This document shows, in pieces, positions 10,842-60,784 of a stretch of DNA of 64,000 nt. A program made the position numbers and the translations under genes. The stretch lies in the NCBI RefSeq assembly GCF_001263395.1, contig NZ_CP011786.1:744001-808000 (forward strand), in the 5' to 3' direction. A model generated the notes under the pieces. The model was given only the letters and a program-made list of their open reading frames with translations, did not search any database and was not told where the DNA came from. The stretch is from Bifidobacterium actinocoloniiforme DSM 22766 (GTDB lineage: Bacteria > Actinomycetota > Actinomycetes > Actinomycetales > Bifidobacteriaceae). How positions within the stretch are numbered: the stretch's first letter is position 1; the number at the start of each line of letters is the position of its first letter.

Positions 10842-11438
10842 TCAGCGAGCGCGGGAGACCAACTTCATGACCGCGTCGCAGGCCGCTCCGACGACCATGC
10901 CAGCCAGGAATCCCAGGCCCATGACCGCCAAGGGATTATCGGACAGCCAGCCCGCGGCCAGGTAGCCTAGCGTCCACATGTAAATCGACCAGAGGAACCC
11001 AGCCAAGGCCGCCAGAGGCAAGTAGCGGGCCAGGGGGTAGCGGGCGGCCCCGGCGATCAGGTTGATGACCGTGCGCCCCGAGGGCACGAACCGGGAGGCC
11101 ACGGTGAAGAATCCTCCACCGTATTCGAAGGCCCGGTGGGCCCAGGAGACGACCGATTTGCCCAGGGAGCTACGGAAGAAAACGATTCTGCGCAGGGGCA
11201 CCGACCGGCCCAGCCAATAAGTGCAAACGTCTCCCCCCGCGAAGGCCAGGGCGCAAACCGCGAAGACGGACCAGGGCGCGGGAGCCCCGGTGGACCGATA
11301 GGCCGAAGCGAGGGCAAGCACCATCAGCTCGGTGGGGATGGGGATGATCAGAGCATCGAAAAAGGCCGCGAACGCGAGCGCCCACAACCCCCAGCCCAAA
11401 GAGACCGTGGCCAGGAGCCAAGCATTGAAGGCCTCCAT
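10842..11438 (-). CDS. DedA/SNARE-associated family membrane protein
   Basis: A 198-residue integral membrane protein with about five hydrophobic segments. It has the family pattern: an acidic-proline segment in the first half (FFDALIIPIPTELMV), GGDVCTYWLGR, then FVPSGRTVINLIAG, the conserved R-x-x-P-x-x-R/G region of DedA proteins, which act as undecaprenyl-phosphate or lipid flippases. The start at 11438 (ATG, GGGAGG upstream) is preferred over longer frames whose extra N-terminus is not hydrophobic. It converges with gap and is divergent from the ybaK-like gene. Confidence 0.85.
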   Translation of the reverse strand: MEAFNAWLLATVSLGWGLWALAFAAFFDALIIPIPTELMVLALASAYRSTGAPAPWSVFAVCALAFAGGDVCTYWLGRSVPLRRIVFFRSSLGKSVVSWAHRAFEYGGGFFTVASRFVPSGRTVINLIAGAARYPLARYLPLAALAGFLWSIYMWTLGYLAAGWLSDNPLAVMGLGFLAGMVVGAACDAVMKLVSRAR

Positions 11439-11486: not shown

Positions 11487-11996
11487 ATGGGCAAGAGATC
11501 GAAACGACAGGGGACGGATGCCTCCACCCCGGCGGTGGCACAGTTGGAGGCGGCAGGCGTGGCCTTCACTCCCTACGAATACGAGCATTCGGCCGACCAT
11601 ATGGATGGCGGCTATGGCGCCGAAGCGGCGGCTAAGCTGGGGATGGACCCAGGCCAGGTCTACAAGACCCTGATGGCCGACACAGGCTCCGAGCGTGTGA
11701 TCGGCATCGTACCGGTGTCAGGACGGTTGAACCTCAAGGCCCTGGCCGCAGCGGTAGGCGCCAAGAAGGCCCGCCTAGCCAACCAACGCACGGCCGAACG
11801 CGAATCCGGCTATGTCGTTGGCGGCATTTCCCCCTTCGGACAGCGCAGCGAGCACCGTACGGTGCTGGATCAGGGCGCCCTGGCCTTCGACCGCATCCTA
11901 GTCTCAGGTGGCAAACGCGGCTTCGACGTGGCGGTCTCGCCGGGCGATCTGATCGCCTTGTTGGGGGCCAGCACCGCTCCCCTGGCCTGTGACTGA
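11487..11996 (+). CDS. ybaK: Cys-tRNA(Pro)/Cys-tRNA(Cys) deacylase YbaK
   Basis: Editing hydrolase that removes mischarged cysteine from tRNA(Pro). The 169-residue protein reads as the YbaK/EbsC fold: VYKTLMAD, the lysine-bearing strand, then LAAAVGAKKARLA, YVVGGISPFG and the closing GFDVAVSPGDLIALLGA. Length is typical. It is preceded by a short 48-base gap to the divergent DedA gene, so the two promoters must overlap. Confidence 0.92.
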   Translation: MGKRSKRQGTDASTPAVAQLEAAGVAFTPYEYEHSADHMDGGYGAEAAAKLGMDPGQVYKTLMADTGSERVIGIVPVSGRLNLKALAAAVGAKKARLANQRTAERESGYVVGGISPFGQRSEHRTVLDQGALAFDRILVSGGKRGFDVAVSPGDLIALLGASTAPLACD

Positions 11997-12347
11997 CCGC
12001 TATCCAAGCCGTAAGCGCCTTGTGCTGACACAGTGGAAGATGGCGCTGCCCCTAAGGCTACCAAAGATTGGACTGGGCGGCGCCTCATGCCCATGGGTTG
12101 CCGAACGAGCCCGCTCTGCCGAGACGTAATGGTTGCCGTCGACCGCGACGTTCCTGCGTAAAGACGGAACGACACCCCCAAGCCTGGGGTAAGCGTCAGG
12201 CGGAACCTACCAGGCACCGTGCGCTTGAAGACCGACCGACCGGCGGGCGAACGGGGAACCGTCCACACGCGCGAAACAAGCCTGGCGGAAGGAGGGGAGG
12301 CGACGGTAGAATGTGAGCGGTAACGCATTCTCCTATTGGGAAGGTCA
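11997..12347. other. 350-base gap with hairpins; no gene recognised
   Basis: No credible reading frame. Two inverted repeats are visible: GGCGCTGCCC (12042-12051) pairing with GGGCGGCGCC (12075-12084), and CCCCAAGCCTGGGG near 12176-12189. Conserved signatures of tmRNA and RNase P RNA were looked for and not found. The 3' end holds a TAGAAT -10-like box at 12307-12312 and a GCGGTAACGC motif at 12317-12326, just before the aldose epimerase gene. Confidence 0.4.
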
Positions 12348-13310
12348 ATGATGAGCGAGGACGCCAAGCAGGCAGTGATGCCAAGGACCGGGCAACAGTA
12401 TTCGATTTCGCACGGGGATTACCAGGCGATCGTCACCCAGCAGGGAGCCACACTGCGGGTCCTGCGATACCGTGGCAAGGACCTGATCGCCTCCTTCAGG
12501 CAGGATCAGGCGATTCCGTGCTCCAACGGGTGCGTCCTGGTCCCCTTCCCCAACAGGATCGAGGACGGCGAATACCGCTTCGATGGCAAGACCTACCACA
12601 TGCCGATTGACGAGCATGAGCGTGGCACAGCCATCCACGGCTACGGTTACCGGTACTACTGGCAGCTGGATGAGCTCAGCGAGTCCAGCGTCAGCCTGTC
12701 CTGGCGCACACCCTCCCTGCCCTACTACCCGTTCGACCTCCTAGTCACCGTCTCCTACGTCCTGGACGAGGATGGGCTGACCATGATTGTAAGCGCCAAA
12801 AACCAAGGCGGAGAACGCGCCCCTTGGGCCTTCGGAATCCACCCTTGGCTGTCCAATGGTCAAGACCACCGCGGCGACGCGATCCAGGCCGACAACGAGG
12901 CATGCTCCTTGCTGGTGCCCTGCCGCACCCATGTGCGCGTCAACGACAGGCTGATTCCCACCGGCGAGGAGACCGTCCAGGGCGACTACGACCTCACCGA
13001 CGGCCCCAGCCTCAAGGGCCGCTCCTTCGACGACGCCTGGTGCGACCCACAACGTGACAGGCAGGGGCGTTCGGCGGCGGTTCTGACCCGTCCGGACGGC
13101 ATCCGTCTGACCCTCTGGGGGGATAAGACCATCAACGCCTGGCAGGTCTGCACCGGCACCGGCTTCGATGCCTCCTTCCGCCCGGCCGGCGTGGCCGTTG
13201 AACCGATGACCGCCTATGCGAACGCTTTCCGGACCGGTAAGGATCTGGTGGCCCTGGAGCCGGGCCAGACCTACACCACCCAGGTCGGATACCGGGCTGA
13301 GCAGGCCTGA
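12348..13310 (+). CDS. Aldose 1-epimerase family protein
   Basis: Mutarotase-fold protein (galactose mutarotase family) of 320 residues, expected to interconvert alpha and beta anomers of a hexose. Family features are VTQQGATLRVLRY at the N-terminus, PFPNRIEDGEY, ERGTAIHGYGYR (catalytic His region), FGIHPWLS and, near the end, VAVEPMTAYANAF with the catalytic glutamate. It could feed lactose or galactose use with LacZ; its promoter shares GCGGTAACGC with the lacZ/ROK promoter. Two adjacent ATGs (12348, 12351) follow AAGG; either could be used. Confidence 0.88.
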   Translation: MMSEDAKQAVMPRTGQQYSISHGDYQAIVTQQGATLRVLRYRGKDLIASFRQDQAIPCSNGCVLVPFPNRIEDGEYRFDGKTYHMPIDEHERGTAIHGYGYRYYWQLDELSESSVSLSWRTPSLPYYPFDLLVTVSYVLDEDGLTMIVSAKNQGGERAPWAFGIHPWLSNGQDHRGDAIQADNEACSLLVPCRTHVRVNDRLIPTGEETVQGDYDLTDGPSLKGRSFDDAWCDPQRDRQGRSAAVLTRPDGIRLTLWGDKTINAWQVCTGTGFDASFRPAGVAVEPMTAYANAFRTGKDLVALEPGQTYTTQVGYRAEQA

Positions 13311-15785: not shown

Positions 15786-17390
15786 ATGGCACTTAGCTTG
15801 AATTCAGCACTCGCAATCCTCAAGGACCACGGGCTTCTGCGGGAGCTGATCGGGCCCGAGGGGTGGACCCTGTCGGCGCAGGGGCCGTCGGCGGATCAGG
15901 ATTTCACCTCGATCACCTACGACTCCCGGCAAGTGGGCCCAGGCGCCCTCCTGTGCTGCAAGGGCCACTTCCAGGCTCGGTTCATGGATGGTCTGGACCA
16001 GGCCGGATTGGCCGCCTACCTGGCTGAGGAGGACTTCTCCCAACGGACGCAGGCCCCGGGCCTTATCGTCTCGAATGTTCGCCAGGCCATGAGCCTGCTG
16101 GCGGCCGAGTTTTACGGCCGCCCCCAGGAGCTCCTCAAATTGGTGGGCATCACCGGCACCAAAGGCAAGACCACGACCGCGTACTACGTGCAGGCCTTGC
16201 TGTCTCAGGCCTCAGGCGGCCGGGCGGCCCTGCTATCCTCCGTGGACAACTGCTTGGACGGGCGCACCTACACCGAGTCCGAGCTGACCACGCCCGAGTC
16301 CCTCGACCTCTTCCGCATGATGAGGCAGGCGGCCGACGCGGGTATGCGCTACATGGTCATGGAGGTCTCCTCGCAGGCTTATAAGGTGGACCGAGTCCAC
16401 GGATTGACCTTCGACGTGGGTGCCTTCCTCAACATCTCGTCCGACCACATCAGCCCCGTCGAGCACCCTACCTTCGAGGACTACCTGTACTGCAAGCGGC
16501 AGATCGCCTATAACAGCCGTCTCCTGGTCTTGGGGGCCGACCACGCTTATGAGGGACTGGTGAAGGAGGACGCGGCGAAGGCCGGCATTCCAATCACCAC
16601 GTTCGCCCTGGACGCGGGGACCGGTCCATCCGGGACCGATCCTGGGCAGGCCGCTACTTGGGTGGCTCAGGTCGACCGGCGGAATCCCGGCGTCAACGCC
16701 TTCCAAGCCCTCCGGCAGGGCCACCCAGCCGGTTCCTTCACACTGGCCATGGACGGCCTGTTCAACGGGGCCAACGCGGCCGCAGCCCTGGCGATCGTCG
16801 ATGCCCTAGGCGTGCCGATGAGCGAATCCGACCTCCAGACCTTGAGCCAGGTGCGCATCTCCGGACGCATGGAGCGCTTGAGCGCGCCGGGGATTGTGGC
16901 TTATGTGGATTACGCCCACAATTACGCCTCCACCAGCGCCGTCCTGGACTTCGTCCACGATAAGTACGGCGGGCAGCCCCTGTCGATCACCCTGGTCACC
17001 GGATCAGCCGGCGGCAAGGCCGTGGACCGGCGCAAGGAGATCGTCGATGCCGCCCAATACAGGGTCGACCGGCTGATTTTGACCGAGGAGGACACCGAGC
17101 TGGCGTCCGAACCTGCGGAAAGCATCTGCCAACAGATGATGGATAACGTAACCAATCCTCAGTTGGACGCCTCAATCATCCAGGACCGAGGCGAGGCCAT
17201 AGCTGAGGCCGTGAGAGGAGCCCAGAGCCACCCGGAGCGTCTGGATGCGATCCTGGTCATCGGCAAGGGCGAGGAGCGATGGATCAAGCGCCAGGGCAAG
17301 CATGTGCCCTACGAAGGCGACGACCACGTCCTGGCCCGCCTGCTCAAATCCGGCGACCCCCAAACCCAGCAAGAGAAAGCGAGCGAGTGA
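15786..17390 (+). CDS. murE: MurE-type UDP-MurNAc-tripeptide synthetase
   Basis: Mur ligase of 534 residues that adds the third amino acid to UDP-MurNAc-L-Ala-D-Glu in the cytoplasm. The ATP site GITGTKGKTTT spans residues 121-131, followed by SELTTPESLDLF (substrate-binding), VMEVSSQAYK and NISSDHISPVEHP. In the position of the DNPR motif that marks diaminopimelate-adding MurE the sequence reads TEEDTELA, so the substrate is probably L-lysine or L-ornithine. It starts an operon with the D-aspartate ligase homologue five bases downstream and a racemase, which fits a Lys/Orn-D-Asp type wall. Confidence 0.85.
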   Translation: MALSLNSALAILKDHGLLRELIGPEGWTLSAQGPSADQDFTSITYDSRQVGPGALLCCKGHFQARFMDGLDQAGLAAYLAEEDFSQRTQAPGLIVSNVRQAMSLLAAEFYGRPQELLKLVGITGTKGKTTTAYYVQALLSQASGGRAALLSSVDNCLDGRTYTESELTTPESLDLFRMMRQAADAGMRYMVMEVSSQAYKVDRVHGLTFDVGAFLNISSDHISPVEHPTFEDYLYCKRQIAYNSRLLVLGADHAYEGLVKEDAAKAGIPITTFALDAGTGPSGTDPGQAATWVAQVDRRNPGVNAFQALRQGHPAGSFTLAMDGLFNGANAAAALAIVDALGVPMSESDLQTLSQVRISGRMERLSAPGIVAYVDYAHNYASTSAVLDFVHDKYGGQPLSITLVTGSAGGKAVDRRKEIVDAAQYRVDRLILTEEDTELASEPAESICQQMMDNVTNPQLDASIIQDRGEAIAEAVRGAQSHPERLDAILVIGKGEERWIKRQGKHVPYEGDDHVLARLLKSGDPQTQQEKASE

Positions 17391-55264: not shown

Positions 55265-55353
55265 ATCGTTCCCTCCCGTCCACGGATGGAACCAAGTGGA
55301 GCGAAACCGAGCAGCGCACGGAGGAATCGTTCCCTCCCGTCCACGGATGGAAC
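55265..55353. CRISPR. CRISPR-like mini-array: two 28-bp repeats, one 33-bp spacer
   Basis: A 28-base sequence (from ATCGTTCCCTCCCG to CACGGATGGAAC) occurs identically at 55265-55292 and 55326-55353, separated by 33 bases of unrelated sequence. The period of 61 matches type I-E geometry, and the repeat has internal dyads (CCGT-CC-ACGG and GTTCC..GGAAC). The bases before and after differ, so the repeat unit is sharply bounded. No further repeat was found 61 bases either side and no cas genes are in the window. It may be an orphan remnant or an unrelated duplicated site. Confidence 0.45.
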
Positions 55354-55609: not shown

Positions 55610-55648
55610 GAAAAAGCCCCTGAAGGCTAATGTTTCCAGAGGGCTTTC
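55610..55648 (-). terminator. Terminator at the left tRNA-Arg half-copy
   Basis: Minus-strand GAAAGCCC and GGGCTTTTT arms around about 20 bases, with a T run. It lies just beyond the 35-base tRNA fragment and probably was the original terminator of the tRNA gene before insertion. Confidence 0.65.
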
Positions 55649-55654
55649 GCTGTG

Positions 55655-55689
55655 GTGCGCCAGACAGGATTCGAACCTGCGACCTGCTG
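55655..55689. repeat. Left attachment site: 3' part of tRNA-Arg
   Basis: 35 bases identical to 60710-60744, that is the 3' end of tRNA-Arg(ACG) from the anticodon stem to the discriminator base. The match stops exactly at the anticodon stem. A duplicated tRNA 3' end is the standard trace of integrase-mediated insertion. Confidence 0.8.
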
Positions 55690-56324
55690 TCGAGAAAGGC
55701 TGCTGTATGCGTACATGCTAGCTGCCCTTAACTGTTACTAATTACGCTTAGAATACTGCCGATACTAGCAGATTCCAAGTACTAACTGAAACGGGTACGT
55801 TAGTGTATAAATGTGCCCGAAATGTGCCCGATTGGATTCGGTCACACCGACTATGGACTGGGTTCAGCGTAGACGATACCCCGTTCAGCGTAATCTACGT
55901 CGAACTCAGGCCATAGCTCACAGCACAAGAACAACTTGTTGGACCTCACGGTCTACAGGAGATTGATACTTGTCCCTGTTCCGCGGAGGGCAATCTCGGA
56001 CGTACACTAAATCTTTTTTGTTCGTATGCCTTATTTCTGCGGACAACTTTGCCAAACACGGAGAAAGCGGGCCGCAACAAAGCGGCTCGCTTCCCGTTCT
56101 GACAAGGCTCCCAAAGCTCTTCGACAGGTCATATTTGGACAGGCTGGTTTTTAGACGCCAGCCTGTTCTCCACAAGCATTGTGGAGCTTCCCATTGAACT
56201 GGAATGGGCCAGACGCGCTGAACAATACGATAAGCCAGAGAAAACTATACTCCTCCAAGTCTTGGCCGATATCACTCCGTGCTCCAACCATACCCCTCCG
56301 AGATTACCAAGTTCACTAGCGTCT
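55690..56324. other. Left part of the island; no convincing gene
   Basis: Short frames on both strands only. Minus-strand GHISGTF (55815-55835) resembles the last residues of some actinobacterial tyrosine integrases, and a related GRISGTL is present near the right end. Minus-strand FDVDYAERGIVYAEPSP (near 55860-55910) looks like an isolated coding remnant. Confidence 0.4.
56063..56094. terminator. Terminator-like hairpin inside the island
   Basis: GAAAGCGGGCCGC (56063-56075) with GCGGCTCGCTTCC (56082-56094), two G-T or mismatch positions, AACAAA loop. Confidence 0.4.
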
Positions 56325-56358
56325 CACTGACTGTGGAGACAACCTCCCACAGTCAGTG
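56325..56358 (-). terminator. Terminator overlapping stop of small membrane protein gene
   Basis: Perfect 12-bp stem CACTGACTGTGG (56325-56336) with CCACAGTCAGTG (56347-56358), ten-base loop; the last six bases overlap the stop codon region of the gene at 56353. Confidence 0.55.
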
Positions 56359-56748
56359 CTGCCGATATTGTTTGAAATCACTGTTTATCTGGGTGATGTA
56401 GGCCAAGTAGCTCAACGTACTTTCATCAATCTTGCACTTGTCCTCATGCTCTTCCCATGTGCGATACCACAAATCCCAGACAGACGGCGAAAAGGACATA
56501 ACCGCTTTCGACCTGTCAACCTTCGGCTCCAAAGGAAATTCCCATCGCAAAGCGGGAGAATTCTCATCGAAAGTCTCCCGCCTGACAACGTCCTGTGCCA
56601 GGCCGGCGGACATATGAGCCTCATCGTTGACATGAAAAGCATCCAGCAGCGCATCATTAGACTGATGAAGCGCAAACAAAGACACAGCCCAACACAACAG
56701 ATAAACCAGTCCGCAGCAAAAGGCCATTTTCAAACGTTTCTTGCGCAT
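56353..56748 (-). CDS. Unknown protein with N-terminal membrane segment or signal
   Basis: A 131-residue protein with a basic start (MRKKRLK), a hydrophobic segment (about 9-27, FCCGLVYLLCWAVSLFALH) and a polar remainder ending YITQINSDFKQYRQH. It could be exported or anchored. It lies 14 bases downstream of the amidase pseudogene in the same direction, so was probably its operon partner. GC and codon use are lower than in core genes. No homologue recognised. Confidence 0.5.
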   Translation of the reverse strand: MRKKRLKMAFCCGLVYLLCWAVSLFALHQSNDALLDAFHVNDEAHMSAGLAQDVVRRETFDENSPALRWEFPLEPKVDRSKAVMSFSPSVWDLWYRTWEEHEDKCKIDESTLSYLAYITQINSDFKQYRQH

Positions 56749-56762
56749 AACTTAGAGCCTAA

Positions 56763-57917
56763 TTAATCAGCCTTCCATTGCAAGCCAGCCCAGCTGGTGT
56801 TTGCAGGAGCACGTCGCACGGATTCACTGAAAAGCATATCGTGCTGATTCCGTGACTTCTGGCAAATAACCGGGACGGAGTTCGCGCCCGACGTGTTCCC
56901 TACCACCACCATGGCGTGGTTGAAGCCATCAGGGCCGTTGCCGAGGTTCGCGTAGATAAGCCCACCCCGCCGACACGATAAGGATTCGACTCGGAAGTGA
57001 AAGCGCCGGAATGGTAACGCATATAGGTGTAATTCATCTGTGCGCCAGACCATGTACGAGAGGCGTGGGCGATGCCAGCAAGGTTCCATGTCCACACTTT
57101 CTCATTCTTCACATCCAAAGATGACCCCCACGCCGTCCGAAGGGCGCCAGCGTAGACCGCCTGAGAAAGGAAATTAGTGCAATTACCTCCATGCCCCTCT
57201 TCCTTGTATATCGGAAAGTCTGGATTTTCTATCAGTCGCAGTCCATTGCTCCGCGTACTGCATCATCCTGATATAGTTCAGACCGGCTTTGTTGGTAAAC
57301 ATATCCTTCGCATATGGTGCCGAACGCATATTGCCGCTAGGCATCGAATTTGGGGTATTAATTGCTTCAGGTTCCGTTCCATCATCCGATTCCAACGGAT
57401 CAACAATTTCATCCGAAACCACCGAATAAGGGGCAGGATTGGATGAATCCTTACCAAGGGTAATGACATGCCGATCAGTAAAGCTCGAATCAAGGTGATC
57501 CCTATGCTCGCCAGCAATAGTGATGTCGGTTCCCGCTGCAGGAACCAATTTCACATTAGACGTCATATCCACCACAGTCTCATAGCCGTCACCCACCTGC
57601 TCAGAAGACACCACACTAGTCGACACCTGAGCGTCATACACCTTCATGCCGGCATCCTGGGCGACGTCTTTATACGAGCTGTTCTCGGCTGCCAATTGAG
57701 ACTGCTTATCCTCCGAAAGCGTCCTCAGACTAATACCCGAATAGCTATCCTTTATCTGTGACGCATACCCACCCAATAGCACAGAAATCTGATTCCGATC
57801 CAGCTCAGGTTCACTAGCACTTGCTGAAACAGGAGCAAGCACAAGCCCGCCAAGTGCCACAGGTAGAGCTGTTGCCACCACGATGCTGACAACTTTCGCT
57901 CTCCCCATGTTAATCAT
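56763..57917 (-). pseudogene. Secreted amidase-domain protein, two frameshifts
   Basis: The N-terminal 225 residues (57917 down to about 57228) start with a signal peptide (residues about 8-35, ending ASAS) and a long extracellular region. The coding sequence then changes frame at the four-A run at 57225-57228: in the new frame it reads NPDFPIYKEEGHGGNCTNFL, the start of the Amidase_6-type catalytic domain with Cys. A second change near 56961-56970 (in a C/G run) moves to a frame reading GGLIYANLGNGPDGFNHAMV and on to the end, SWAGLQWKAD. Joined, the protein would be about 384 residues with Cys, His (FNHAMVV) and Asn (SRNQHD) all present. The role would be peptidoglycan or surface amide hydrolysis. 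Each shift is one base in a homopolymer. Confidence 0.75.
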
Positions 57918-58195
57918 AATTAATTCTTTCTACTAGCATCTGCGGCAGAGAACTCACTCATTGAGAACCTCGTCAGCAGACGCTACCACTATATCAAAGT
58001 GTAGTTAAAGCCTTGCTTCTTTATCTATAGTTTTATTATATCTCTTAAATATGGTCTAGAAAAAATAAAAAACGTTTTTCCTCTATCATAGTTAACAGCA
58101 AAGAGCAAAGAAGCAATCATAGTATGGTAGGAATCACGAAATTCTTGCCCTGAATCCTGCATAACCTCACCTGACCGGAAACCGCATTAATATGA
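57918..58195. other. AT-rich promoter-side gap of the island
   Basis: About 280 bases with many T/A runs (for example near 58010-58090) and no frame of note. It would hold the promoter of the amidase gene. Confidence 0.45.
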
Positions 58196-59330
58196 GGATA
58201 AAGTAGCAAAACGTGGGCTTTTTGGTTGGTTGATTCCGGTGTGTTGGGCCTATAGGCCGTGTGTTGGGGGCCATGCGCTTCGTCCGGCCCATCCCTTCCT
58301 GGTGTGGAGTCCCTCCTCGGCGATGGTGGCGGTGCCGTAGGGCGATGGTCGCTCCTCCTGTCTTTTCCTGGTTGCGGGTTTGGGTCCTTGCCTCATGATG
58401 GACATGGGATCGGGGCCGGGGCCGGCCAGGTATATGGTCCGTTCCACGATGCGTCTCACGTGCTCCTCGCTGCAGCCGGTGCGCCCGCGCACGGCGGCGT
58501 TGATGGACCCGACCAGGTCGCTGGTGGCCTGCACGGGGCCCTTGCCAGTCAGGTCGGGGTCGGTGAAGGCGAGCAAGGATCCCTGTCGGTTGAGTTGGTC
58601 CAGGCGCAGGTGGGCACGGCGCGGCCGCTCGTGGGTGCACCGCCACTTCCTGCCGGCCAGGGCCTTGGGGTGGTGGGGGTCCCCCGAGGCCAGGGCCCTC
58701 TCCTTGATGCTGTGGCCGTGCTCCAGGTGCCGATGGTTGAGCAGGGCCAGCCAGGAGGCGGCCCCCTGCGGGGGTCGCGGATCACGTGGACCAGGCAGCG
58801 CTGGACCCGGGTGCCGGGCCAGCTCGCCCCGACCTGGGCCAGGCAGCCCCTGTCGCCGTCGCAGGTCAGGCTGCGGTGCCTTGCGCGCACCGGGGGCAGG
58901 GCGGGTTCCAGGTCCCAGCACCAGGACACGCGCCTGGCCAGGGCCCACCGGCTCACCCCGGCGTCCGCGGCCAGGTCGGCCATGGAGCGCCTGCCCGACA
59001 CCCAGTGCAGGAACAGCCTGAAGGACGCCGAGCGTCCGGTGCCGGCCCGGGGCGCGGTCGCGCTCAGGGGGCAGAGCACGGGCCGCACTTCCACCGCTGG
59101 CTGCCCAAGGCCGTCCGGCCCTTCTTCCTCATGGGCCTTGCGCATACCGGGCACAACCTGGCCCTGGCTGATTTCCTTCTGACCATGCGCCCCAGCGAAC
59201 CAGCCCACGAAGCCAGGCAAAAGTCAAGCAGGCCCACCCATCAACACCCCAACCATTAACACCGGCCCGCCACACCTACTCCCACAAGGCCCAACAAGCA
59301 CCATTAGACCCACATTCCGCTACTTAACCC
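58196..59330 (-). mobile_element. IS element A, IS1249/IS256-like
   Basis: About 1.13 kb. Ends are related inverted repeats: GGATAAAGTAGCAAAACGTG (58196 onward) and, on the other strand from 59330, GGGTTAAGTAGCGGAATGTG. A broken transposase gene fills the interior. Element B begins immediately to the right, in opposite orientation. Confidence 0.65.
58250..59186 (-). pseudogene. Transposase of IS element A, frameshifted
   Basis: The protein is spread over three frames. The N-terminus has a zinc ribbon (LCPVCARPMRKKGRTALGS then WKCGPC) in the frame starting at 59186; the core (SMADLAADAGVSRWALARR, LTCDGDRGC, RVQRCLVHVIRD) is in a second; the C-terminal half (GHSIKERALASGD, LRLDQLNRQGSLLAFTDP, GSINAAVR) is in a third. 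Shifts fall near 59050-59080 and 58761-58780 (C/G runs). Domain order is that of IS1249/IS256-like DDE transposases. Not functional as read. Confidence 0.7.
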
Positions 59331-59337
59331 GGACTTT

Positions 59338-60590
59338 CTGGGGTGTCCATTTTGTGCGCGTTTTCACCATGTAAGCCCTTGTGCCAGTATGCGTTGTGCC
59401 AATTCGAATGTGTCTGCTTGGCTTGGAAGGCATGAACACACCGGATTGCCCCGCCTGCGGAGGGAGGATGCGCACCAACGGCGCCACCAGCGTGGGACGC
59501 ACCAGATGGCGGTGCGAGGAGTGCGGCTCCTCGACGAGCCGCACCTATGACCGGCGGGCCGCCGACCTGAGGAGTGGCCTGGACTGGCTGTTCTCCAAAC
59601 GGACGCTAAGCGAGGGCCCGGTCAGCGCGCGCACCCAGCAGCGGCGCAACCGACTCATGTGGTCTCTGATGCCGCCCGTACCCCTGGTCTGGGAGCATCA
59701 TGACGTGGTGCGGGTCGACGGGATCTGGCTGCACCGGCGGGCCGTGGTCCTGATCGCGGTGGCCGACGGCCATGTGATTGGCTGGAGGATGGCCCGGCAT
59801 GAGGACAGCGTGGCCTGGGGCCTGCTCATGGGCCGCATCGCCGCGCCCAGGGTCCTAGTATGCGACGGGGGCGGCGGCATCGCCAAGGCCATGCGGCACA
59901 TCTGGCCGGGCACGTCCACGCAGCGCCGCCTGTTCCACATCGCCATGAACGTCACCACCCTAACCGGCATGAGACCACGGCTCAGGGCCGGCAGACAGCT
60001 GCGGCGCATCGCCATCGCCCTGAGCCACGTCAAGGACGGGGACCGCATGAGGCAATGGCTGCTGGGCTACAACGACCGGGAGACCACGTGGCACCAGTGG
60101 CTCAAGGAGACCAGCACCCACGGGGACGGCTCCCAGGCCGACACCCACCAACGGCTGGTCAAGGCCCGCAACCTCCTCAACCGCAGGATCAAAGAGGACA
60201 CCATGGGCACCTTCATCGCCATGGCCGACCAGTGCCAGAGTCCCGTACCCACGACCAACAACCTGCTCGAATCATGGAACAAACAGCTGAGAACCATGCT
60301 CAGGAACCACAACGGCCTGAGCCTGGAACGCGAGACACGGGCCATCTGCTGGTGTGCCACCAACACACCGCCATGCCCCAAAGCGACGCCTGGCTCGTCA
60401 ACAACGCCTACAACGACCAGGACCTCGAACGACCCAACAACCTCGCCTGGCAACACAGCCAGCAAGGCCTGCACGCAACCACCGGCATGCCCGAACACCA
60501 CGAGCCATCGACTGGAACGAATTCCACACACCCGTCAGATACCCCAACGGCACAGACTAACCCGCACACAATATGGCGTATAACCCCAAC
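59338..60590 (+). mobile_element. IS element B, IS1249/IS256-like
   Basis: About 1.25 kb. Imperfect terminal inverted repeats: CCATTTTGTGCGCG near 59347-59360 and, inverted, CCATATTGTGTGCGGG near 60561-60576, with GGGGT outside both. Distinct in sequence from element A, so not a duplicate. No clear target-site duplication. Confidence 0.55.
59432..60560 (+). pseudogene. Transposase of IS element B, frameshifted near 3' end
   Basis: About 310 codons are intact from ATG 59432: zinc ribbon CPACGGRMRTNG..CEECGSS, then catalytic Asp in VRVDGIWL and LVCDGGGGIAKAM, and Glu in LLESWNKQLRTM. A one-base loss near 60351-60358 and another near 60496-60506 split the C-terminus into three frames, which joined would read WCHQHTAMPQSDAWL and end DWNEFHTPVRYPNGTD at 60560. 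All catalytic residues precede the shifts, so residual activity is conceivable, but the family's conserved C-terminal tail is lost. Confidence 0.7.
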
Positions 60591-60657
60591 ACGGTACGGC
60601 CGGAGTAAGCCAGGAGGGTACCTTGCACAAGCAATGTGCCCGAAATGCGCCCGCGTC

Positions 60658-60709
60658 CAAAAACAAGAATGGTCCCGAGGCTGTGAAGCCTTGGAACCAT
60701 TGAATTCTT
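60658..60709 (-). terminator. Terminator of tRNA-Arg supplied by the island
   Basis: CAAGAATGGT..AGGCT (60664-60682) pairs imperfectly with AGCCT..ACCATT..TTCTTG (60687-60710); on the minus strand TTGTTTTTGG follows. It immediately follows the tRNA 3' end. Confidence 0.65.
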
Positions 60710-60744
60710 GTGCGCCAGACAGGATTCGAACCTGCGACCTGCTG
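60710..60744. repeat. Right attachment site within tRNA-Arg
   Basis: 35 bases identical to 55655-55689. Covers the 3' half of the intact tRNA gene plus one base beyond. Confidence 0.8.
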
Positions 60745-60784
60745 ATCCGTAGTCAGCTGCTCTAATCCGCTGGGCTACTGGCGC
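60711..60784 (-). tRNA. tRNA-Arg (anticodon ACG)
   Basis: A 74-base cloverleaf reads from GCGCCAG (60784 downward) to CTGGCGC plus discriminator A. The anticodon stem GCTGA/TCAGC encloses CTACGGA, giving anticodon ACG (read as ICG, Arg CGN). The T arm is GCAGG-TTCGAAT-CCTGT. The D stem GCCC/GAGC has one mismatch. CCA is not encoded. Its 3' half is the attachment site of the island. Confidence 0.96.

Follow-up and report, generated by a model that had tools for sequence, protein, structure and literature searches.

Cis-mobilizable elements (CIMEs) are defined by the absence of integration and transfer genes combined with the retention of both attL and attR (PMC5704250). Among the ssrA-linked islands of Dehalococcoides, some lack the integration module and have been read as possible cis-mobilizable elements (PMC3146451). 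Here, we describe an island of about 5 kb in Bifidobacterium actinocoloniiforme DSM 22766, a bumblebee isolate whose genome was assembled from Illumina data with gap filling (PMC4582582). This genome is a single contig of 1,830,060 bases; the 64-kb stretch that we analysed, hereafter the window, corresponds to G000:C1:744001-808000, and its own numbering is used below. We read this island as the remnant of an element that belonged to a tyrosine-integrase family found in bee-associated bifidobacteria.

The ends of the island and its target tRNA gene

The 3' end of tRNA-Arg(ACG) is present twice as an exact direct repeat of 35 nt, at 55655-55689 and 60710-60744, which bears out the duplication of the tRNA 3' half claimed in an earlier note on this DNA (35/35 nt identical). 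By an arithmetic estimate, the chance expectation for an exact 35-nt repeat within ~5 kb is near 1e-14. A single tRNA-Arg(ACG) of the region is complete (60710-60784, minus strand; ARAGORN, Rfam); this is the target gene, and its portion 60710-60744 constitutes the right att core. The left att core (55655-55689, minus strand) comprises the 3' 35 nt only. The island thereby displays what distinguishes a tRNA-targeting element, namely the tRNA 3' end repeated at either boundary and one whole tRNA gene.

Behind each copy lies a separate terminator, again as the earlier note had claimed; the two hairpins are different, and both fold better than their shuffled counterparts. The left one (55610-55648, minus strand; -18.0 kcal/mol, z -3.3) has equivalents in the related genomes G013 and G021, with which it has flanking motifs in common, and in G033, whose terminator has the same loop, CTAATGTTTCC. 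It is the native chromosomal tRNA-Arg terminator, now cut off from its gene beyond the island's left boundary. The right one (60668-60701, minus strand; -25.0 kcal/mol, z -4.5) is element-borne and now serves the tRNA: the same hairpin stands behind the tRNA-Arg of G006, G007, G018 and G081 and behind a second tRNA-Arg of the host genome, with a similar one in G010. Its presence in element-bearing relatives supports the proposal that the island supplied a terminator for the tRNA. Elements of this family replace the terminator of their tRNA upon entry.

Unoccupied sites, which the earlier note had suggested looking for, are found in G013, G021 and G033. In these relatives, which belong to species other than that of the window, a single complete tRNA-Arg is directly followed by a native-type terminator. 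The genomes searched include none of the same species, and they did not reveal the site of this very island in its empty state; nor could it be approached through the left flank, as the 3-hydroxyacyl-CoA dehydrogenase gene located there lies elsewhere in relatives, away from tRNA-Arg. Synteny across the genus is largely preserved in the right flank. The earlier note had allowed that the same 5 kb might be fixed in all relatives; it is not.

The tRNA-Arg(ACG) gene is a hotspot, occupied by other elements with different integrases in G008, G011 and G020, and G005 carries a pair of tRNA-Arg(ACG) cores about 40 kb apart (loci L031, L032, L041 and L104/L105 for these genomes). G008, whose element has a different integrase, forms a filled/empty pair with G013 at the same tRNA.

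A short distance to the left of the island, at 55265-55353, two exact 28-nt repeats (ATCGTTCCCTCCCGTCCACGGATGGAAC) occur 61 nt apart, and the genome has no further copy. The 33-nt sequence that separates them is 94% identical over 32 nt to a plasmid-like contig of G006. Judged from this arrangement, the pair looks like a two-repeat CRISPR remnant, although it could also be a dispersed repeat.

A family of elements with conserved arms

In the search of relatives, the recurrent parts were the two ends of the island (~55655-55842 and 60584-60784), other matches being mostly IS sequence. The left arm (55690-55842) is 86% identical over 176 nt, core included, to sequences of both G081 and G006, and was also found in G022, G010, G007, G014, G003 and G025. 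Within the genus, a match at E 0.001 or better was obtained in 11 of the 27 genomes, in some through short pieces only. Besides tRNA-Arg(ACG), this arm is found at tRNA-Pro(GGG), where the core differs. Its pattern was matched in B. apousia, B. xylocopae, Bombiscardovia coagulans, two B. asteroides strains and B. polysaccharolyticum; viral contigs gave no match and thus no phage link. The right arm (60584-60709) is 80% identical over 120 nt to G081, 81% over 131 nt to G007 and 74% over 125 nt to G006. Both ends contain, in the same orientation, the 20-nt motif ATGTGCCCGAAATGYGCCCG, which the earlier note had not remarked. These arm-like repeats, assigned to direct-repeat family D3, lie on the plus strand at 55811-55830 (ATGTGCCCGAAATGTGCCCG) and 60634-60653 (ATGTGCCCGAAATGCGCCCG); the 23 nt surrounding the left one are identical in the right arm of G081. 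They are placed as integrase arm sites would be, and we infer that role from their position.

An integrase-bearing relative, which the earlier note had proposed to seek, was found in G081, a genome of the same family but of a different genus, by using an integrase piece of G023 as query. Its 5.5-kb element (L099 11075-16657) occupies the same tRNA-Arg(ACG): the tRNA gene lies at 11035-11109, and the 35-nt core recurs, exactly, at 16623-16657. The int gene (11527-12795) is intact and encodes 422 aa (PF00589, 2e-19), and the xis gene, likewise intact and divergently oriented, has NTVRPE as its last codons, adjoining the right arm. With ends homologous to those of the window (left 86%, right 80% identity) and both recombination genes intact, this element supports tyrosine-integrase insertion as the origin of the duplication in B. 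actinocoloniiforme. Its cargo consists of small ORFs, including a 139-aa ORF and a DUF6037 protein; no IS1249-like match was found in the element, and no relaxase was recognised among the ORFs tested. A further element-type terminator stands in front of the far core, a sign of tandem accretion at this site. Integrases with 73-79% identity reside at tRNA-Pro(GGG) in G023 and G026 (L034, L035) but at tRNA-Arg(ACG) in G081 (L099), a target switch within one integrase subfamily.

The earlier note had also considered that the left 35 bp might belong to a truncated second tRNA gene, in which case the island would not be an element. The host genome does carry a second tRNA-Arg(ACG), at G000:C1:529976-530700 (L002 1499-2280). 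However, what adjoins the left core is a conserved element arm and not tRNA sequence, this arm holds the same place in several other genomes, and the repeats of G081 flank an intact integrase. We reject the truncated-tRNA explanation, to which we give next to no credence. The second tRNA-Arg is itself followed by an element-type terminator, an xis-like stretch (60% identity) and int fragments, and its 5' acceptor strand differs from that of the window's tRNA-Arg, which makes its function doubtful.

The xis remnant, the IS elements and the cargo

No tyrosine recombinase was detected among the island ORFs tested, and the intact integrase of the family, used as a tblastn query, finds nothing between 55690 and 60709; the absence of an integrase asserted in the earlier note holds on both counts. 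Since the integrase gene that is intact in G081 is absent within the island, the latter is a derivative and not an autonomous member of the family. A trace of the lost module persists on the plus strand at 60588-60608 in a feature that the earlier note had overlooked: NTVRPE and a stop codon, the last six codons of the excisionase gene xis, identical to the C-terminus in G006, G007, G081, G022 and G023. The xis product of G007 resembles HTH_17, at 6e-6, which narrowly misses the Pfam cut-off.

Beside this stub lie the two IS elements reported in the earlier note, which are real and both IS1249-like (IS256 group). IS1 (58196-59330, minus strand; edges read from the sequence) has a broken transposase and is assigned through a fragment that matches NF033544 at 3e-18 in one frame, below the cut-off. 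IS2 (59331-60583, plus strand) contains a transposase ORF at 59381-60583 that matches the same model at 1.9e-101, above the cut-off, over aa 21-330 of 400, its C-terminal part falling outside the model match. Judged from IS relatives and element relatives, the right edge of IS2 lies within a few nt of 60584. Family homology at the right end of the window begins at this very position, as seen across ~10 related loci. No target-site duplication is evident in the sequence at the IS edges, IS2 included, which would suit a deletion adjoining an IS. In G006, IS1249-like sequence likewise adjoins a slightly longer xis stub.

The earlier note had left two explanations for the missing integrase: loss when the IS elements inserted, or mobilisation in trans. 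Loss alongside the IS insertions is the preferred one, since the point within xis where family homology stops is an IS edge, and the trans alternative has no positive evidence in the host genome. A variant in which int disappeared first, through a plain deletion or frameshifts of the kind seen in G007 and G023, with the IS elements arriving later as neutral debris, draws on the several relatives that have a broken int and no IS in its place: G023 and G026 have one break each, and G007 has an internal deletion. It seems the less probable course here, because homology breaks off at the IS edge and IS2 lacks a visible target-site duplication, as expected of an IS-adjacent deletion. Loss of int before the IS insertions nevertheless cannot be separated from loss by them. 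The relatives provide a readable decay series, from the intact element of G081 through those with a broken int (G023, G026 and G007) to those with an xis stub and no int (the window and G006). A tRNA-Thr call in G007, which overlaps a fragment of the 35-bp core, looks spurious.

The cargo part of the island has a GC content of about 0.51, compared with about 0.57-0.67 in the flanks. It comprises, on the minus strand, a 131-aa ORF (56353-56748) with an N-terminal membrane segment, recognised by eye, and no Pfam or NCBIfam match, and a pseudogene (56766-57917) of a secreted Amidase_6 protein, whose middle piece matches PF12671 at 7e-10. Two frameshifts, near 57210-57250 and 56960, interrupt this gene; single frameshifts in the cargo could be errors, because the assembly combined Illumina data with gap filling (PMC4582582). 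Intact amidase relatives occur in G007 and in G008, where the protein has 380 aa. In G008 (L107 1435-3037), the intact secreted Amidase_6 gene is followed by a 148-aa membrane-protein-like ORF, a layout like that of the window's cargo. A match between this ORF and the 131-aa ORF was considered but is not supported, as the proteins are not significantly similar (E 0.28).

Decay, movement in trans and comparison with known systems

Based on the above data, the island is, with high probability, a decayed integrative element that lost int and most of xis by an IS-adjacent deletion and remains as a CIME-like passenger. Within this reading, the order of events, the deletion step, the loss of mobility and any response to outside Int are what we infer. 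The ancestral element would have encoded Int and Xis divergently at its tRNA-proximal end, and recombination between attP of its circular form and the 3' end of tRNA-Arg(ACG) would have rebuilt the tRNA 3' half and provided a new terminator, displacing the old 3' end and the native terminator to the far side. IS1249-like elements may then have entered the xis-int module, and an adjacent deletion would have removed int and all of xis except its last six codons. The Amidase_6 cargo would have decayed as well. As both att sites remain and int and xis are gone, the island could presumably move only with matching Int and Xis provided from outside.

An alternative is that the island is an integrase-less satellite moving in trans, its att cores and arm sites being used by the Int and Xis borrowed from a related element. 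Both arms are well conserved despite the loss of int, and other members also have no recognisable int (G006, G010, G014 and G003). The one suggestive lead is an int-less interior stretch of 3.2 kb that G014 and G003 share at 98.7% identity although its surroundings differ (L038 5947-9147 and L039 3020-6220, in B. apousia and B. asteroides ESL0199), compared with 90% identity in the tRNA-Pro flanks of G014 and G025, which argues that this int-less DNA moved recently. However, the absence of an integrase is uncertain for G003, where the copy is close to a draft-contig end, and the xis stub with its adjoining IS points to decay and not to a streamlined satellite. A satellite would also depend on its cell supplying a helper integrase with the right specificity, and the window's genome encodes no intact family integrase: of its four PF00589 genes none is close to the family's Int, any similarity being distant, and the only family copy is the pseudogene behind the second tRNA-Arg. 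We therefore regard a satellite as improbable. Mobilisation of the decayed element in trans is possible in principle, but it is not needed to explain the island and has no positive evidence in the host genome. A broader scenario, that int-less cargo islands of bee-associated bifidobacteria, with conserved att arms of 120-150 nt at tRNA-Arg(ACG) and tRNA-Pro(GGG), still cross species by means of the Int and Xis of rare intact relatives, strikes us as a long shot. With its conserved arms and the intact Int and Xis of G081, the family offers a possible test system for in-trans mobilisation.

Reading the island as a decayed element makes it a well-documented example of a known process, an ordinary fate and not a new mechanism. 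Its closest intact counterpart, the G081 element, resembles it in target, core length, homologous arms and xis C-terminus, and differs in its intact int and xis, its other cargo and the lack of a detected IS1249-like match. The element of G006 (B. xylocopae; L028 5447-9675) occupies the same tRNA and has homologous arms; it, too, combines an xis stub that IS1249-like sequence adjoins with the absence of a detected int, but in place of the amidase it has genes for a short-chain dehydrogenase and an AraC-type regulator. The Dehalococcoides ssrA islands are likewise flanked by att sites at an RNA gene and in some cases devoid of an integration module, although the modules encode serine recombinases (PMC3146451) whereas the relatives of the island encode a tyrosine integrase. 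As for CIMEs, the island has no integration or transfer genes and keeps attL and attR at a tRNA gene, and its relative G081 shows tandem ends; a CIME would further derive from an ICE or an IME, and in this respect G081 has int, xis, small cargo ORFs and no relaxase recognised among the ORFs tested. By its gene content and ends, the island appears to fit a CIME-like defective element.
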